From positions 1-22,157 of IMG/VR virus record IMGVR_UViG_3300009551_000122: 22,157 bases of DNA; one strand, written 5' to 3'. A program made the translations under genes and the position numbers. This DNA comes from a virus. Below the pieces are notes generated by a model. The model searched no databases. It was not told the origin of the DNA and saw only the letters and a program-made list of their open reading frames with translations. Below are positions 1-16,642 of this stretch, in pieces. The stretch's first letter is position 1, and every line of letters starts with the position of its first letter.

Positions 1-86
1 GAGGGGCGAATCTGCGGATGGTCTGAGAGTTTGGATACCAGGACTTCCGGCTTAGGGTTTCGATTCTTCCGCTCTTCGTCAGTCAT
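1..86 (-). CDS. partial unknown phage protein (N-terminus only)
   Basis: This minus-strand reading frame starts at ATG 86-84 and runs off the left edge without a stop, giving about 28 residues beginning MTDEERKNRNPKPEVL. The start is supported by a GGGAG ribosome-binding sequence 7 nt upstream and by an ATGA overlap with the stop of the gene before it, the arrangement seen through most of this polycistron. The visible part is charged and has no recognisable motif. No function can be assigned from so short a fragment. Confidence 0.6.
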   Translation of the reverse strand, partial: MTDEERKNRNPKPEVLVSKLSDHPQIRP

Positions 87-331
87 TCGCAATCTCCCGG
101 TACCTCTTCATCGTCGTCATCGAAAATGATGTAGGGCTCAAAGTCGCCGCGCCGAATTCCCCTTGCGATTTGGCACTCGACCATCATGGCGATGGTTCGC
201 TCCTCGTCGGCTTCCAGCGGGCCGTCCGCTGTGGCGATGAAGCGCGCCGTTGCCTCGATGTATTCGCCGAGGTCTTCCACGTCGCTGGTGAGAGTCCAGC
301 CGCTTACGATAGCCGAGAATTCATCTCTCAT
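83..331 (-). CDS. small acidic hypothetical protein (82 aa)
   Basis: The 82-aa product is strongly acidic and ends in an Asp/Glu-rich tail (IIFDDDDEEVPGDCE). It has no membrane segment, signal peptide or familiar catalytic motif. Its start overlaps the stop of the upstream 31-aa gene as ATGA, and its stop overlaps the next start the same way. Position in the chain is therefore the best evidence that it is translated. Acidic small phage proteins sometimes act as DNA mimics or host-factor binders, but nothing specific shows that here. I do not recognise the family. Confidence 0.7.
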   Translation of the reverse strand: MRDEFSAIVSGWTLTSDVEDLGEYIEATARFIATADGPLEADEERTIAMMVECQIARGIRRGDFEPYIIFDDDDEEVPGDCE

Positions 332-423
332 AATTCGTCCAGTGTGCGAATAATCGAAGGCTCTACACCACGCCTCCAGGGACTCTCAACCCTCGCATAC
401 TGATCTGGGTTAACCGTACTCAT
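328..423 (-). CDS. micro-gene, 31-aa hypothetical protein
   Basis: This 31-codon frame begins MSTVNPDQYARVESPWRRG and ends in IIRTLDEL. Both ends are ATGA overlaps: its ATG shares bases with the stop of the 50-aa membrane protein gene, and its TGA with the start of the 82-aa acidic protein. A short frame landing exactly between two such junctions is unlikely by chance and supports real, coupled translation. It looks soluble and has no recognised motif; function unknown. Confidence 0.55.
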   Translation of the reverse strand: MSTVNPDQYARVESPWRRGVEPSIIRTLDEL

Positions 424-572
424 CGTTTCAAAATGGCAACTATCACAGCTACAACAGCCACACTAAAGGCGTACCAAAACCTTCTTCTCCACATTTTTAC
501 TTCAGCATAGGGAGTAAGCCCCTGGTCCCTCACCTGGTGAAGATTCCAGCGGACTTCCTGCTGCCAGTTCAT
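420..572 (-). CDS. small single-pass membrane protein (50 aa)
   Basis: The frame encodes 50 residues: a polar N-terminal half starting MNWQQEVRWNLHQVRDQ, a basic stretch (KMWRRRFW), and a C-terminal hydrophobic helix (roughly residues 33-48, AFSVAVVAVIVAIL) ending in KR. By the positive-inside rule the N-terminus should be cytoplasmic, with the helix anchored in the inner membrane. Start and stop each form ATGA overlaps with the neighbouring genes, so it belongs to the leftward polycistron. Roles such as holin-like or superinfection-exclusion factor are possible but unproven, and one helix alone is not diagnostic. Confidence 0.6.
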   Translation of the reverse strand: MNWQQEVRWNLHQVRDQGLTPYAEVKMWRRRFWYAFSVAVVAVIVAILKR

Positions 573-1420
573 ACAGAATCCTTTTTAGGATTAACCTGGA
601 GACTCTCCGCTTGCTCCCCTGCTCCCATGGTGGCGGGCGAGAGCGCTGTATCAGCAGTACGCTCGGTCGGATAAAGCGCTTCAACCTCAACCTGCCGTCT
701 AGCGAGTTCCTCAAGTCCGCCGCGCTCCGTTCTCGCGACTTCGATCAAGGCGGGCAGCCCCGTGGCCACTGAGTGCTCAACTTCAGCGCGCGTTGCTGGC
801 CTTCCCAGTGCCCACCATTCCACTCGATCCGGGTCACCGACGCTGAACAGCCGTCCTCCCTTTCCGTCGGGCACAAGCTTGTAGTCGCGGCAAATCCACA
901 ACAGCGCTACGCCTGGGTTGCGTTCGATCATCACGCCCGCGACGTTGGCCCTGGCGGATTCGATTCGCGCGGGTTCAGCACCGGGGCCGGTTTCGCGGCG
1001 TATCATTTGGGGCTTGCTGAGGAAGGGGCAGTTGCGCGCGGACCATTGGGCGCATTCCAGGTGTGAGGGTGGCTCGCTCGATATTCGATTGATGGCGCAC
1101 ATGGGACCGATGACGAAACACAGCCACGATCCCAGACGCTGGCCACAGACCCAACAAAGTCTCTCCCGGATCGCCCGCGTGAGCTTCTGTCCATCCATCG
1201 CGCGAAACTCCGGTACTTTTCCATCCGGCCCGTCGATCCACGCCACGAACCACGGCACCGCATAACCGCGCGCATCCACCGGCAGGTCTTTCATCCGCTC
1301 CGGCAATGGTTCGAGTTCAGGGCGAAGCATGTGCGCAGATTGAAGGCTCTCCCGATCTGCATCTAGGGACTCGCGAAGTGGAACTGCTGATTCCTGGTTG
1401 CCCTTCAAATCGTCGCCCAT
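569..1420 (-). CDS. Cys-rich phage hypothetical protein (283 aa), probable zinc binding
   Basis: The conserved-looking core begins near residue 52 (YAVPWFVAWIDGPDG) and includes EFRAMDGQKL, CWVCG (C89, C92), C101, GPMCAINR (C108), SEPPSHLECAQWSARNCPF (H120, C123, C131) and a C-terminal acidic/basic helix. I recognise this pattern as a recurrent uncharacterised phage and prophage protein. The spaced Cys/His residues suggest one or two structural zinc sites; that is inference. The first 43 residues are low-similarity leader, and translation might instead begin at M43 (MKDLPVDARG). AAAGGGG lies about 11 nt before the chosen ATG. It follows the HNH gene by 5 nt, the only junction from 2253 to 86 without an ATGA overlap. 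Confidence 0.8.
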   Translation of the reverse strand: MGDDLKGNQESAVPLRESLDADRESLQSAHMLRPELEPLPERMKDLPVDARGYAVPWFVAWIDGPDGKVPEFRAMDGQKLTRAIRERLCWVCGQRLGSWLCFVIGPMCAINRISSEPPSHLECAQWSARNCPFLSKPQMIRRETGPGAEPARIESARANVAGVMIERNPGVALLWICRDYKLVPDGKGGRLFSVGDPDRVEWWALGRPATRAEVEHSVATGLPALIEVARTERGGLEELARRQVEVEALYPTERTADTALSPATMGAGEQAESLQVNPKKDSV

Positions 1421-1425
1421 TTCTA

Positions 1426-1764
1426 TCAGGCCCCTTTCAAAGTAGACTCGAAAAGCCCGTTGAATTTCAATATCAGCTTTGTAATATCCAACCCATGAAC
1501 GGCAGCAAATTCAAGCGGTCCTAAAGCATGTAGTGACTCGGTGCCCGTCTGGTGGTGCAACGCGCATAGTGGAATCACCTGCAGGTCTGAACTCTTCGTA
1601 CCCATTCCATGCGAGCCAGTATGGGCAGCTTCCACGCGACGGGTCGATTCACACACACAGCATGCGAACCTTCGGACGAATGCCTTGTACTTCTCATTGC
1701 GGACTGGCTTACCCCGCTGGTAACCCCCTGCAAGCGAAGACCGCACCCCATACGCCGTGTTCAT
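1426..1764 (-). CDS. HNH-type nuclease-fold phage protein (112 aa)
   Basis: Residues 24-82 carry a compact HNH-like zinc module: FACCVC (C35/C36, C38), EAAHTGSHGMG (H48), IPLCALHHQTG (C67, H70, H71) and SLHALG. This matches the small phage proteins related to P1 Ref/DUF968-type HNH proteins, some of which nick or cut DNA and some of which have unknown roles. Replication or recombination support is the likely setting. The N-terminal 20 residues are not part of the fold, so M1 is chosen mainly because it makes an ATGA overlap with the upstream micro-gene. Activity is inferred only from motif spacing. Confidence 0.8.
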   Translation of the reverse strand: MNTAYGVRSSLAGGYQRGKPVRNEKYKAFVRRFACCVCESTRRVEAAHTGSHGMGTKSSDLQVIPLCALHHQTGTESLHALGPLEFAAVHGLDITKLILKFNGLFESTLKGA

Positions 1765-1856
1765 CGGCCATCCATGAACAGCAGTGCTCCACCGAGTGCA
1801 GCGAAGAAGATGGCGTACCAGATCCGATCAGGCCAGGACAATTTACGGTCGATCAT
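1761..1856 (-). CDS. micro-gene, 31-aa single-pass membrane protein
   Basis: The 31-codon frame starts MIDRKLSWPDRIWYAIFF and contains one predicted membrane helix (about residues 12-28: IWYAIFFAALGGALLFM) followed by DGR. The charged, basic N-terminus suggests a cytoplasmic N-end. Its ATG overlaps the stop of the 77-aa gene and its TGA overlaps the start of the HNH gene, both as ATGA, which strongly supports it as a genuine gene despite its size. No family is recognised. It is the second micro-membrane protein in the same polycistron. Confidence 0.6.
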   Translation of the reverse strand: MIDRKLSWPDRIWYAIFFAALGGALLFMDGR

Positions 1857-2086
1857 TCCGACCGCCGCAAGATGTACTCCACACCCCGGATGCGTGCCCC
1901 TGGAACCGTGGCGCCACCAGCCAGCAGCTTCCGGATCCGCCGGTAATCCGGCTTCTGGCAGACCAGCCCGGCGGCCTCGATCGCGGCTTCGTCTGTAACC
2001 TCGATCGATTCATACCGGGTGAGCGAGAGCCCGGTTTCCCCTGCCAGCTTGCAGACTGCCTGATCTTCCGAGAAGGGCGCCATCAT
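1853..2086 (-). CDS. hypothetical protein (77 aa)
   Basis: A soluble 77-aa protein with mixed charge. It begins MMAPFSEDQAVCKLAGETG and carries a basic central segment (KPDYRRIRKLL, about residues 45-55). There is no obvious fold signature; the helix-rich composition could fit a small nucleic-acid-binding or adaptor protein, but that is a guess. Its start is fixed by the ATGA overlap with the 56-aa gene upstream, and its stop overlaps the start of the 31-aa membrane micro-gene. Its place in the accessory polycistron suggests early or lysogenic expression. Confidence 0.7.
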   Translation of the reverse strand: MMAPFSEDQAVCKLAGETGLSLTRYESIEVTDEAAIEAAGLVCQKPDYRRIRKLLAGGATVPGARIRGVEYILRRSE

Positions 2087-2253
2087 ACGGACGCCTTCCC
2101 GGAATCCGCATCTTTCACACGTGCGCCCCGCTGCACCATGTGAACCCTGGAGCGCAATTCTCGCGCCCGCTCCGGTTCGTCGTCCTGCTCGTAAGCATCC
2201 GCCAAAGAGCGCGCCACCATGCAGAGCAACCGCCGCTCATCGTGCGTCATCAT
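2083..2253 (-). CDS. small hypothetical protein (56 aa)
   Basis: The frame encodes 56 residues beginning MMTHDERRLLCMVARSLADA, predicted as one amphipathic helix followed by an acidic turn (YEQDDEPERA) and a second basic helix (RELRSRVHMVQRG). The helix-acidic-helix layout resembles small helical hairpin proteins; no family is recognised. The first ATG (2253) overlaps the stop of the 210-aa gene as ATGA, and the TGA overlaps the next gene's ATG. A second ATG immediately follows the first, so the exact start could be one codon later. Confidence 0.6.
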   Translation of the reverse strand: MMTHDERRLLCMVARSLADAYEQDDEPERARELRSRVHMVQRGARVKDADSGKASV

Positions 2254-2882
2254 GCACCACCTTTACGCTGCAGGCCGATGAAGGCGGAAAGCATGACCGT
2301 ACGAACAACGGCATTCGGTACACCCTGGGACTCCGCGTGGATGCAGGCCTGAGCGTAAACGTCAATGAGCGCGTTGGTCTGATTTAGCAGCGTGACGCCC
2401 CAGGGTTGCAATTGCTGAGCCTGCGGAGCCCGTGACGGCATGGCTACCGGGCCATAGGTTCCAGTCCCCTGTGATTGAACGGGCGGGGCACTGACGGCCG
2501 GCTTACGCTGCTGCGACTCAAGAATGGAGGCCGCTAACTGGCGTTCGAGCAGTGAAGGCGGTTCGTCCTGCATCTCTGCGCGAGCCCGCGATTTTTCGCC
2601 TTCTGGATCGAGCCAGACATCCACATATCCCTGTTGCGCTTTGTTGGTGGATTTTTTGCAGATCCAGAATTCTTCCCGGTTGCCGAGCTGCAGGCCGTAA
2701 ATCTTGTTGGCCACTCCGAGCGACAGGTAAGCACTGCGGCCATCGACCAGCCCGAAGTACACCTGCTTCTCGTCACCAAATCGCGAGTCGCAAATCTTGC
2801 CTGTGGGATATTTCAAGGCGATCCGCTCCGGCACGTTCGGCTGGAGCATTAGTTTCGATGGCGCGTTTCCGTTGTTGTTCAT
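2250..2882 (-). CDS. hypothetical phage protein (210 aa)
   Basis: The first 95 residues look like a compact beta-rich domain (for example PERIALKYPTGKICDSRFGDEKQVYFGLVDGR split by turns, about residues 18-50). A linker rich in Gln, Pro and Ser follows (about 105-160), then a C-terminal helical tail. An ordered N-domain, flexible linker and short tail is a layout shared with single-strand DNA-binding and annealing proteins, but no OB-fold signature can be proven by eye, so the function stays open. The start is well supported by an AGGAGG ribosome-binding site 10-11 nt upstream, the strongest in this operon. Confidence 0.75.
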   Translation of the reverse strand: MNNNGNAPSKLMLQPNVPERIALKYPTGKICDSRFGDEKQVYFGLVDGRSAYLSLGVANKIYGLQLGNREEFWICKKSTNKAQQGYVDVWLDPEGEKSRARAEMQDEPPSLLERQLAASILESQQRKPAVSAPPVQSQGTGTYGPVAMPSRAPQAQQLQPWGVTLLNQTNALIDVYAQACIHAESQGVPNAVVRTVMLSAFIGLQRKGGA

Positions 2883-2962: not shown

Positions 2963-3340
2963 TTAGGCCACTTCCCTTAACTTGCGCGCCCGCATTTCGA
3001 TTAGCAGCGCTTCCAACTGGTCGATAATCAGCTCGGTTGACATGGCGCGGATCGGTTGCGGCAGGCGAGCAGGCAATACCGGCCGGCGGGCCCCATGCAA
3101 TTCGCAATTGCTGGCGTCTGCCTGATCACCACCTGAAAAGATGCACTCGCATTCAAGCGCTTCCACGCGCCGCAATTCGACGCATGCCCCACAGAGCAGG
3201 TCGTTACCCGTGCCGATGTTTTCGGCTCCCGGGCACATGTCGCACATGGCGTTTCCGCAGTCTTCGCAGTCGGCAAGGGTTGACCATTCGCGCGAGTCGC
3301 AGGTAGTGCAGAAGGTTGTTGTGTGGGGTGATGTGCTCAT
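2963..3340 (-). CDS. zinc-binding protein with four CxxC pairs (125 aa), first gene of leftward operon
   Basis: Residues 11-53 contain four evenly spaced CxxC pairs (C11/C14, C25/C28, C33/C36, C50/C53). This is the layout of a two-zinc cross-brace or B-box/RING-like module. More Cys/His residues follow (CECIF, NCELHG) and the protein ends in a basic C-terminal helix. Such modules bind proteins or nucleic acid; which one applies here cannot be told. It is the first gene after a palindromic operator and extended -10, with its ATG only 6 nt past the -10 and no Shine-Dalgarno, so a leaderless or nearly leaderless message is expected. It may be a regulator of the region, but that is inference. Confidence 0.75.
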   Translation of the reverse strand: MSTSPHTTTFCTTCDSREWSTLADCEDCGNAMCDMCPGAENIGTGNDLLCGACVELRRVEALECECIFSGGDQADASNCELHGARRPVLPARLPQPIRAMSTELIIDQLEALLIEMRARKLREVA

Positions 3341-4356: not shown

Positions 4357-4417
4357 AAGATCCGGCCTTAATTGAGTACATTCCACTCCGATATTGGCGC
4401 AACATCGAAGTAACGTT

Positions 4418-5047
4418 ATGAAGTGCGCAATCTATGCCCGCGTCTCGAAGAAGGAAGGCCAGGACACCGAGAACCAGCTCCTCGACCTCCGCCGGTATGC
4501 GAAGGCGCAGGCCTGGGAGGTCGTTGAATATATCGATCACGACACCGGCAAGCATGCGAACCGGGACGCCTTCAAAGAGCTGGTGGCCGATGCCAGCCGG
4601 CGGAAGTTCGGGGTAGTCCTGGTGTGGGCACTCGATCGCTTCACCCGTGAGGGAGTGCTCGAGACGTTTGGCCACGTCCGGAAGCTATCCGACTACGGCG
4701 TACAGTTTGAGAGTTACACCGAGCCATTCTTCCGCACCACCGGGCCCGCCGGCGAGCTGCTGATGGCTGTCCTTGCCTGGGTGGCGAAGCAGGAGCGGCA
4801 GCGCATCAGCGATCGCACCAAGGCCGGCTTGGCCATTGCCCGATCCAAGGGGAGAGTGGGTGGCCGGCCCGCGAAAGTCTTCGACCGGGACCGAGCGCGC
4901 GCGATGCGGGACCAGATTCCGCCGATGAGCTGGCGGGTGATCGCGCGGGAATTGGGCGTTGCTCAATCCTCGATCCGGAAGGCCTTAAAGGGTGTGCCTA
5001 AAACGTCCGCCCGAAAACCCCGAAAGCGTGTTGCAACCAAATCCTGA
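4418..5047 (+). CDS. small serine recombinase (resolvase/invertase type, 209 aa)
   Basis: The N-terminal catalytic domain is unmistakable: IYARVSKKEGQDTENQ with nucleophile S10 and R8, LDRFTRE (D73, R74, R77) and KQERQRISDRTKAGL (E127 helix). A C-terminal HTH (about 169-190, MSWRVIARELGVAQSSIRKAL) and a basic tail follow. The size fits resolvases and invertases, not the 450-600-aa large serine integrases, so it may resolve multimers, invert a segment or act in a small mobile module. ATG 4418 is preferred because the catalytic strand begins there; an in-frame TTG 24 nt upstream is less likely. No phage tyrosine integrase is visible in the window. Confidence 0.93.
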   Translation: MKCAIYARVSKKEGQDTENQLLDLRRYAKAQAWEVVEYIDHDTGKHANRDAFKELVADASRRKFGVVLVWALDRFTREGVLETFGHVRKLSDYGVQFESYTEPFFRTTGPAGELLMAVLAWVAKQERQRISDRTKAGLAIARSKGRVGGRPAKVFDRDRARAMRDQIPPMSWRVIARELGVAQSSIRKALKGVPKTSARKPRKRVATKS

Positions 5048-5593: not shown

Positions 5594-6496
5594 TTAAAGA
5601 CCGCAGCCGCCCTCACACTCCATCGCGAAAGCTAGCTGGTCCTTCCGCTTGAAGTCTATTTGATCGAGTGGCCGGCAGTCCGCATGCAGGTATAGCTTTT
5701 GATCGAGTCCGCGATTTACTACGATGCCAGGCGTGCGTATCGCCGTATCGATCTGTAGCAGCTTCTCACGGGTGGGCCCTGGCTCCATGCGCTTGGCCCA
5801 GGTGGCATCATCCTGGAACGGGCAGAAGATACAGGCCGATCCGTAGACCTGGTGCGGCACGTGGATCTGGTTGTAGGCTTCGCAATCGTCCCGGCTCCAT
5901 CCGGTTTCGCCATTCATTTCGAGCAGGGGGAAGTGTACCAGCCAGTTCGGCCGCGCCCTGCCGCTCTCGGTTAAGAATCGCCGCGCGATATCAACCGCCC
6001 GTGTCCGCTCTTCCCACGAAATACCGATCGACTGGTGAACCGTGACGCCCCGTGGAACGTGTTGGCCCGGTTTCAGGCCCACCACTTCGCGCCTGATTGT
6101 CTGCTCGATGACCTCGATTTTGTATTCCTTGGTGCATTGCCGGCGGAGCATTCCATGTTTGCCGCCTTCCACGGTGGCGGTAAATGCGGGAATGGTGGCG
6201 AAGCGCTGCCCTGTGGAGTTTTCGCCGCGGGTGAGGTCGTCGCTGATACAGCCCCGCGTACGCACCAGGATAGGCGGCCCGTGGAGCGATACGAGCCAGT
6301 CGAGGTGAGCATAGACCGATTCAGGCGGATCCGGAAGCCCCAGGCGCCTTTCTTCGGCGCCCGGTTCGTTGCGCGTGTCAGCGAATACGGCACAATCGAA
6401 CCTTGGCACTGCTGGATGTCCTGCCAGGGAGAGAAGGTAGAGCGTAGTTGACTGGACGCCTGCACCGAGATTCAAAACCTGAAATTGAGTTTCCAT
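5594..6496 (-). CDS. PAPS-reductase-like PP-loop protein (300 aa)
   Basis: The N-terminus carries a PP-loop (VLNLGAGVQSTTLYLL; GAGVQS at residues 11-16), the ATP-pyrophosphatase signature of the adenine-nucleotide alpha-hydrolase superfamily. RRQCTKEYKI (118-127), ISWEERTRA (159-167) and CIFCPFQDD (C222, C225) match the phage 'phosphoadenosine phosphosulfate reductase family' proteins. A C-terminal ECEGGCG adds Cys residues. True PAPS reduction is unlikely to be the job; relatives include DndC-type sulfur-transfer enzymes, so nucleotide or nucleic-acid modification is a reasonable inference. It lies 6 nt downstream of the LuxR-like gene, forming a two-gene leftward unit inside phage late territory. 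Confidence 0.88.
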   Translation of the reverse strand: METQFQVLNLGAGVQSTTLYLLSLAGHPAVPRFDCAVFADTRNEPGAEERRLGLPDPPESVYAHLDWLVSLHGPPILVRTRGCISDDLTRGENSTGQRFATIPAFTATVEGGKHGMLRRQCTKEYKIEVIEQTIRREVVGLKPGQHVPRGVTVHQSIGISWEERTRAVDIARRFLTESGRARPNWLVHFPLLEMNGETGWSRDDCEAYNQIHVPHQVYGSACIFCPFQDDATWAKRMEPGPTREKLLQIDTAIRTPGIVVNRGLDQKLYLHADCRPLDQIDFKRKDQLAFAMECEGGCGL

Positions 6497-9114: not shown

Positions 9115-9306
9115 TTGAGCCCCTGTGGAGTTCCACTTCCCCAACCCGAATCAGTCTCACCACCGGATGAACCGGAAGTTCACCAATGGGGCAGCTACGA
9201 TCCAACCTTGGCCGAAGAGATTGAAGGCTTCCTCGTGACACTGCCCACCTGGTTGATCGAACCCGCTGCCATGACGGAAATCCTCGCCCTCCTGCATGCT
9301 GCATGA
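9115..9306 (+). CDS. possible small acidic protein with TTG start (63 aa)
   Basis: The frame uses TTG 9115, preceded by AGGTG at 5-nt spacing, and ends in an ATGA overlap with the methyltransferase gene. The product begins MSPCGVPLPQPES, is acidic in the middle (DEPEVHQWGSYDPTLAEEIEG split here for description) and ends in a helix (MTEILALLHAA). There is no ATG near the front, so a real start depends on TTG. The clean stop/start overlap and good composition make it plausible but not certain. No family is recognised. Confidence 0.5.
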   Translation: MSPCGVPLPQPESVSPPDEPEVHQWGSYDPTLAEEIEGFLVTLPTWLIEPAAMTEILALLHAA

Positions 9307-10598
9307 CAGATATCTGGCCCATTGACCGCCTGATCCCGTATATCCGCAACCCCCGCAAGAACGACGCGGCGGTAGGGCAGATGTGCGCCTCGATTCAGGA
9401 GTTCGGCTTCAAGATTCCCGTGCTGGTCCGGTCCTCGGGCGAGGTGGTCGACGGCCACCTGCGCATCAAGGCGGCCCGCAAGATGGGTATCACCGATATC
9501 CCGGTGATCCTGTGTGACGAATGGTCGGAAGCCCAGGTAAAGGCGTTCCGGCTGCTGGTCAACCGTTCGGTGAATTGGGCGGAATGGGACGACGATCTGG
9601 TCAAGCTGGAGATGGTCGACCTGAAGGCGCTCGAATACGACCTCAGCCTCACGGGGTTCGATTCGGCCGAAGTGGCGGAGTTCCTGAAAGAGGCCACGGT
9701 CTATGGGCAGGACGAGGACGCGGTACCCGAGGTTCCAGCCACTCCGGTAACGATCCTGGGCGATTTGTGGCTACTGGGGGAGCACCGGGTACTGTGCGGC
9801 GACTCGACGGACGCAAGCGCGGTGGCGAGGCTAATGGGTGGCAAGAAAGCCACGTTGCTCGCGACGGACCCACCTTACCTGGTCAACTACACGGGCGGGT
9901 CGCATCCGCAGTCCTGGTCGAATTCCCCAGAGGTGAAAGATAAATGCTGGGATTCATACAAGGACCCGGCCTCCTGTATCGAGTTTTACGAGTCCTTTAT
10001 GCGCATCGGGCTCGAACACCTTGCCAAGGGTGGTGCGGTTTACCAATGGCATGCTGCACTGATGCAGTATCTGGTTCACCAAGCTTGGCTCAAGTGCGGG
10101 CTGCTGGTACACCAGCACATCGTCTGGGTGAAGGCGCGTTCCGTTTTAACGCACTCCCACTATATGTGGCAGCACGAAGTCGCCTTTTATGGCTGGCCAA
10201 AGGGGAATCTACCGAACCTCCGTCCGCCCGCAAATACCTCGACTGTTTGGCAGGTTAATCAGGTTGGCGAATCGACCGGAATCCACCCAACACAAAAGCC
10301 GGTGGAACTTGCGCGCCGGCCCATCGAATACCATACACAGCCACACGACATTTGCTATGAACCGTTCAGCGGATCCGGCACCATGATTGCGGCGTCGGAA
10401 GCTGCTGGCAGGGCGTGCTACGCGATGGAAATAGCGCCGGAATTCGTGGACTGCGCAGTCAACCGCTGGCAGGAATTCACCGGCAAACAGGCCACCCACG
10501 ATCAGACCGGCCTGACCTTCGACGCACTGAAAGCGCAGCGGCTTGGCACCACCGAACGTGTACCCGACGAGGAGACAGAAGTCTCCATTGCTAGATGA
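9303..10598 (+). CDS. ParB-like domain fused to N4/N6 DNA methyltransferase (431 aa)
   Basis: Residues 1-130 form a ParB/Srx-like N-terminal domain (IDRLIPYIRNPRKND, then VVDGHLRIKAA with the GHxR motif at 51-54). Residues 150-395 form a beta-class amino-methyltransferase: catalytic DPPY at 189-192 precedes the SAM-binding FSGSGT at 355-360, with HPTQKP at 328-333 between them. The enzyme should methylate adenine N6 or cytosine N4 on DNA. Such ParB-MTase fusions are frequent phage genes just upstream of terminase and may protect phage DNA or mark packaging sites. No partner restriction enzyme is encoded nearby. Start and stop overlap both neighbours as ATGA. Confidence 0.95.
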   Translation: MTDIWPIDRLIPYIRNPRKNDAAVGQMCASIQEFGFKIPVLVRSSGEVVDGHLRIKAARKMGITDIPVILCDEWSEAQVKAFRLLVNRSVNWAEWDDDLVKLEMVDLKALEYDLSLTGFDSAEVAEFLKEATVYGQDEDAVPEVPATPVTILGDLWLLGEHRVLCGDSTDASAVARLMGGKKATLLATDPPYLVNYTGGSHPQSWSNSPEVKDKCWDSYKDPASCIEFYESFMRIGLEHLAKGGAVYQWHAALMQYLVHQAWLKCGLLVHQHIVWVKARSVLTHSHYMWQHEVAFYGWPKGNLPNLRPPANTSTVWQVNQVGESTGIHPTQKPVELARRPIEYHTQPHDICYEPFSGSGTMIAASEAAGRACYAMEIAPEFVDCAVNRWQEFTGKQATHDQTGLTFDALKAQRLGTTERVPDEETEVSIAR

Positions 10599-16092: not shown

Positions 16093-16631
16093 TGGAAACC
16101 ATTCAGCAGGACCTGCAACCGAAACCAACGCCCGTAGGCGGAACCATCGATAACCCCGGCACCAGCCGCGGCGATGCAACAGCTAACCTCCAAGCCAATG
16201 CAGAGTACATGTGTGCGCAGTTGAATGCGAAGCTCGTTGCGGCGCTCGACGCCCGCGACGAATCGTATAACATCATGCTGCGATCGGGCAGCTTTCCTCA
16301 CCTCGGCGCGCCTCCCGTTGGCGATCGCTCGTGGGTGGTTGTGCCTGCCGATGGCTCACCCAATGGAATGCCCGGCTACGACCAGGTGGGACCGCCCGTC
16401 ATTTCGACTGTTGAGATTCTGAAGGGCAACAACGCCTTGATGGGCAAACAGAACGCCACCCCGGATGTTACCGACATCGGTATCGAGTTCTCGCCCGGCT
16501 GGTTTCAGGCTGGCCCAACCGACTCGCGCCTGAACGGCTTTGAAGTCACGCTACCCGGTCCCAAGGGCAATATCATCACGCTTCGCAAGATGGTCCTCCC
16601 CTGGGGCGGCAAGTACGAACAGGTCGCGTAA
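16092..16631 (+). CDS. hypothetical structural-region protein (179 aa)
   Basis: ATG 16092 is chosen because it overlaps the previous TAA as TAATG; the same frame is open 270 nt further upstream, but that part shadows the portal and the small helical protein. The N-terminal 40 residues are Thr/Gly/Pro/Gln-rich. A helix (AEYMCAQLNAKLVAALDARD, about 38-57) and a beta-rich C-terminal half follow (GDRSWVVVPADGS, GIEFSPGWFQ, GFEVTLPGPKGNIITL). This suggests a small structural or accessory virion protein. Its location between portal and scaffold fits. I do not recognise the family. Confidence 0.72.
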   Translation: METIQQDLQPKPTPVGGTIDNPGTSRGDATANLQANAEYMCAQLNAKLVAALDARDESYNIMLRSGSFPHLGAPPVGDRSWVVVPADGSPNGMPGYDQVGPPVISTVEILKGNNALMGKQNATPDVTDIGIEFSPGWFQAGPTDSRLNGFEVTLPGPKGNIITLRKMVLPWGGKYEQVA

Positions 16632-16642
16632 AGGAACCCACC

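Follow-up and report, generated by a model that had tools for sequence, protein, structure and literature searches.

Do the short minus-strand reading frames that follow one another by four-base stop-start overlaps in an uncultured phage represent genes, and what kind of operon do they form? The window analysed here, 22,157 nucleotides long, is an entire IMG/VR virus record. It encodes a terminase large subunit (TerL), a ParB-like/DNA methyltransferase fusion, a major head (capsid) protein and a serine recombinase. A DNA search with the whole window against phage records (INPHARED) revealed no similar record.

Anatomy of the overlapping chain

Ten minus-strand frames, designated A to J, extend from position 2882 to the window edge (Table 1). 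A preliminary description of this DNA had reported exact ATGA overlaps at eight of the nine junctions between 2253 and 86, and direct reading as well as recomputation gave the same result. The four frames of 31, 50, 31 and 56 codons pointed out there were found at the given sizes, too, and correspond to D, G, H and B, the four micro-genes of the chain. That size-filtered gene callers would miss them is not correct, because 93 coding bases plus a stop codon exceed the default minimum of PHANOTATE (90 nt). As gene A stands upstream in the chain and gene J continues past the window edge, the true feature is larger than positions 1 to 2253.

Table 1. Frames, junctions and adjacent features of the minus-strand chain.
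Feature	Position	Strand	Description
Gene A	2250..2882	-	210 aa; 96/94% identity in L052/L054, dN/dS 0.05-0.07
Micro-gene B	2083..2253	-	56 aa; ATGA at both ends; codon usage fits phage
Gene C	1853..2086	-	77 aa; 65-66% identity, dN/dS 0.11-0.28
Micro-gene D	1761..1856	-	31 aa; one hydrophobic segment; both ends ATGA in the window, L052 and L054
Gene E	1426..1764	-	112 aa; predicted DUF968 / HNH nuclease
Gene F	569..1420	-	283 aa; Cys-rich; three-part chimera
Micro-gene G	420..572	-	50 aa; C-terminal hydrophobic span after RRR
Micro-frame H	328..423	-	31 codons; conservation confined to the first 22
Gene I	83..331	-	82 aa; unrelated gene in its place in L052/L054
Gene J	3..86	-	cut by window edge; 93% identity over 28 aa to L054 homologue (276 aa), ATGA kept
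A/B junction	2253-2250	-	ATGA
B/C junction	2086-2083	-	ATGA
C/D junction	1856-1853	-	ATGA
D/E junction	1764-1761	-	ATGA
E/F junction	between 1426 and 1420	-	+5 gap (tagaa), no overlap
F/G junction	572-569	-	ATGA
G/H junction	423-420	-	ATGA
H/I junction	331-328	-	ATGA
I/J junction	86-83	-	ATGA
Gene Z	2963..3340	-	125 aa; Cys-rich; opens leftward cluster; 74% identity over 80 aa in L052
Promoter-like site	3375-3347		just upstream of gene Z; TTGCTA-17-TAGAAT, consensus match only

Chance or base composition might produce such a chain, as ATGA is frequent in general (20 occurrences in the 2.9-kb strand) and no arrangement is commoner in prokaryotes than the four-base overlap (PMC10666635). But in 3,000 dinucleotide-preserving shuffles, searched for ATGA-linked ATG frames of at least 25 codons, the longest run was 3 and was reached 9 times, compared to 4 in the window, and the opposite strand contains no ATGA-linked run by the same criterion. 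Since none of the shuffles reaches the observed run and the other strand has none, we regard the chain as real, and the view of the preliminary description that the overlaps are hard to explain by chance is borne out. Taking into account that the overlaps are also conserved in related phages, a chance origin was rejected as extremely improbable.

This phage makes frequent use of four-base overlaps. In its plus-strand late cluster, 9 of 25 junctions, counted on a hand-made gene list, are of this type (7 ATGA and 2 GTGA). The minus-strand chain is denser in overlaps than this cluster (Fisher p=0.004). Between plus-strand genes, about 550 bases (16093-16642) lack a convincing coding frame; the sole candidate there, 16225-16422, scores -0.37 bits per codon.

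Micro-genes at the overlaps

The operon is present in three further records. Two of these, L052 and L053, are identical over the locus, leaving L052 and L054 as distinct relatives. Scans of viral contigs with G, C, E and H revealed nothing beyond these three records, a genome scan with D gave no match, and neither A nor G matched any phage record in INPHARED.

The frames of D and G are intact in both relatives. D exhibits 77-84% identity and a dN/dS of 0.08-0.19 (Fisher 1e-3 to 1e-6), a value which, like all dN/dS values given here, rests on two distinct relatives, since the scans returned no further records, and is complicated in places by recombination blocks. For G, the identity is 74-88% and dN/dS 0.13-0.24 (Fisher 2e-3 to 6e-7). 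Synonymous change thus exceeds non-synonymous change in both, and judged by these substitution patterns D and G are genuine genes under purifying selection. In their amino acid sequences, both look like single-span membrane peptides. A possible hairpin, AATCCTAAAAAGGATT, at 572-595 (minus strand) covers the Shine-Dalgarno sequence of G in the window and in L054. It is absent from L052, where G is no longer overlapped.

H and B gave a different picture. For H, dN/dS is 0.5-1.2 and synonymous changes are not significantly in excess (p 0.29-0.72, with only 22 codons alignable to the window); no Shine-Dalgarno sequence precedes it (+0.4 kcal/mol), and its codon usage is weak and not distinctive. 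Its last nine codons align poorly between the lineages; this tail changes jointly with the downstream gene, which is replaced in both relatives. For B, no homologue with a conserved frame was detected in L052, in L054 or in the viral-contig scans. These results raise the alternative that some micro-frames, most notably H and perhaps B, are linker frames carrying ribosomes onward, or recently acquired sequence. On the other hand, H retains its start, 17 invariant residues and both ATGA overlaps in three lineages and is too short for a strong test, and the codon usage of B matches the phage. We consider the linker or acquired-sequence reading nearly, but not quite, an even bet. H may encode a protein or may serve only to pass ribosomes on to the following gene. 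Of the four micro-genes, two are therefore supported (D and G), one may be either gene or linker (H) and one is an orphan (B).

The comparison of synonymous and non-synonymous change in relatives, which the preliminary description had proposed as a check, hence speaks for D and G, but gave no signal for H; B is absent from both relatives. Its proposal that the operon is a set of small proteins made at coupled levels agrees with the overlap anatomy and the conservation of D and G; it is not backed by H, which shows no sign of protein-level selection, nor by B, for which no homologue was detected, and the coupling mechanism itself is one that we infer. With D and G (31 and 50 aa), two new, evolutionarily supported phage microproteins were obtained that have no known relatives outside the three phage records. 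Reading from stop to start along overlaps is a good way of finding such micro-genes.

Exchange of single genes between related phages

Single genes have been gained, lost or replaced between the relatives, while their neighbours and most of the overlaps were kept. The window, L052 and L054 all have ATGA at the C/D, D/E and G/H junctions and at the one following H, and all three keep the five-base gap between E and F. F and G are joined by ATGA in the window and by GTGA in L054, and are separated by a +2 gap in L052. Between A and C, the window contains B, whereas in both relatives A is joined directly to C by TGATG. The preliminary description would have taken interrupted micro-frames or the loss of overlaps in homologous loci as a refutation: D and G are intact and C/D, D/E and G/H persist, but B is missing and the F/G overlap is lost in L052.

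The most complex case is gene F. Its first 30 residues recur in a different gene of L052, and approximately the last 40 in different genes of L052 and L054. Between these shared end blocks, the slot is occupied by two small genes in L052 and by one small gene plus a MerR-like gene in L054. At each end of F lies a 50-100 bp block of DNA that recurs nearly identically in the relatives (L052:5293-5891; L054:5293-6002), where the blocks enclose entirely different genes, as if they served as exchange points.

The core of F (about residues 32-250) belongs to a widespread family marked by conserved Cys and His residues, with members in 50 viral contigs and 28 genomes, including Paraburkholderia, Bradyrhizobium, actinomycetes, planctomycetes and others. 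This phage/prophage family (L002-L051, L061-L088) exhibits the conserved motifs CxxCG, GPMC, EPPxHxxCA and CPF; L010 was left out of the F alignment because its matched stretch contains a stop. The family has no match in Pfam or PHROGs and no relative in the PDB. An AlphaFold model of F (pLDDT 76.8) gave no PDB match with an E-value <0.7, and a sequence-profile search of the PDB gave no match.

Gene A exhibits the best Shine-Dalgarno sequence of the chain (-10.3 kcal/mol). Database searches, including a sequence-profile search of the PDB, assigned no function to it, and its predicted structure was useless (pLDDT 36). A homologue of gene I in L093 lies upstream of the DnaB helicase gene, in a chain of four-base overlaps leading to it.

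The gene replacement seen here is ordinary phage mosaicism at single-gene resolution, and the locus illustrates clearly how the genes of an overlapping operon are exchanged one by one with the overlaps kept or restored. A further-reaching reading would be that ATGA overlaps are the standard boundaries of exchangeable gene cassettes, that coupling is restored with each swap, and that H is a 'relay' frame without a role as a protein, its tail moving together with the gene that follows. Across the window and the two relatives, the ATGA that ends H persists through replacement of the downstream gene, and the loss or gain of B swaps ATGA for TGATG. We nevertheless regard this reading as rather unlikely.

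Relation to the lambda nin region

Stop-start overlaps are usually accompanied by translational coupling. Strict coupling was observed for 13 of the 14 overlapping pairs tested (PMC6728339), and termination-reinitiation has been measured in E. coli and Haloferax (PMC6728339, PMC10666635). The pairs studied there (Huber et al. 2019, 2023) include ATGA and TGATG junctions like those described here, and the 5-base and 2-base gaps of our loci are shorter than the spacing of ~20 nt that abolishes coupling. Throughout the chain, the junctions are either stop-start overlaps or a very short gap, as expected for termination-reinitiation.

A similar organization is known from phage lambda: in 1982, Kroger and Hobom (reference 64 of PMC10695390) described its nin region as a series of interlinked genes. 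The entire region is dispensable for plaque formation (PMC10695390). Like the present chain, the nin region (ren, ninB-ninI, Q) consists of co-directional small genes (56-300 aa) mostly joined by ATGA or GTGA, with nuclease and recombination genes among small unknowns. The lambda O-to-Q region exhibits 6 ATGA and 1 GTGA in 11 junctions, so that co-directional genes are linked by four-base overlaps at 7/11 junctions compared to 8/9 here, with no clear difference in overlap density (p=0.16). There are differences, too: the small nin genes encode 56-68 aa, whereas the micro-genes described here go down to 31 aa, and our phage is not a coliphage. Furthermore, ninC of lambda carries the annotation PAPS reductase; in our phage a PAPS-reductase-like gene (phrog_424, E=7e-23; 5594-6496, minus strand) is situated upstream of the minus-strand cluster, but outside the chain.

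The nuclease component of the chain is represented by gene E, a predicted nuclease of the DUF968 HNH family. Its match to PF06147 (E=7.9e-10, 39.5 bits compared to a gathering threshold of 27.8) is partial, covering profile positions 87-155 of 171, and it matched an HNH endonuclease in PHROGs as well. A homologue is found in the early region (gp42-gp46) of the lambdoid phage mEp390, in the run gp42-gp43-RusA-HNH-Q with the junctions ATGA, ATGA, GTGA and ATGA. As in our chain, the DUF968/HNH gene thus lies within unbroken four-base overlaps. In contrast to our chain, mEp390 exhibits the order RusA-HNH-Q and longer genes, and E, about 40% identical to the mEp390 homologue, comprises only the C-terminal HNH part of DUF968.

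The DUF968 HNH nuclease together with the comparison to lambda nin suggests a delayed-early recombination/accessory operon. We consider it likely that the chain represents a delayed-early operon of nin-like type, in which translation proceeds by termination-reinitiation and genes are swapped between relatives. One leftward transcript would carry the chain of short genes, and ribosomes ending one gene would resume translation from the ATG with which the following gene overlaps it. The products would comprise the DUF968 HNH nuclease, the two small membrane peptides D and G, the Cys-rich F and several unknown proteins, with an accessory and probably non-essential role. No ninB-ninI orthologue was detected among the chain genes in Pfam and PHROGs, and no homologue of Q, RusA or NinB/NinG among the chain genes or the scanned genes of L052 and L054, with the chain running off the window. 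We refrain from naming it a true nin region, since these searches gave no ninB-ninI orthologue and its position relative to Q lies beyond the reach of the window. The arrangement itself is textbook lambda biology, i.e. an ordinary compact phage operon of a kind known in lambda since 1982, according to the account cited above.

Alternatively, the chain might be an early accessory module of anti-host factors, as the preliminary description had suggested, in which D and G would target the host membrane or competing phages, and the other proteins host processes. The proteins are small, rapidly swapped, unknown and adjoin an early-type gene, and by sequence D and G resemble single-span membrane peptides. 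However, searches of Pfam and PHROGs linked the chain to none of the known families of anti-host proteins, its sole recognizable gene encodes a recombination-type nuclease, and a place in a nin-like chain does not single out such an action. Beyond smallness, membrane spans and rapid turnover, nothing that we found points specifically to anti-host factors, and we give this alternative only a small chance compared to the nin-like operon.

The leftward cluster is opened by gene Z, in front of which the promoter-like site is located (Table 1); an Rfam search gave no match. On the plus strand, a serine recombinase gene (4394-5047; Resolvase N-terminal domain, E=1.3e-33) was identified. In L052 and L054, a 217-aa frame of equal length and resolvase-like sequence adjoins the operon. 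Directly ahead of the terminase genes, a ParB-N domain is fused to an N6/N4 DNA methylase (9303-10598, plus strand).
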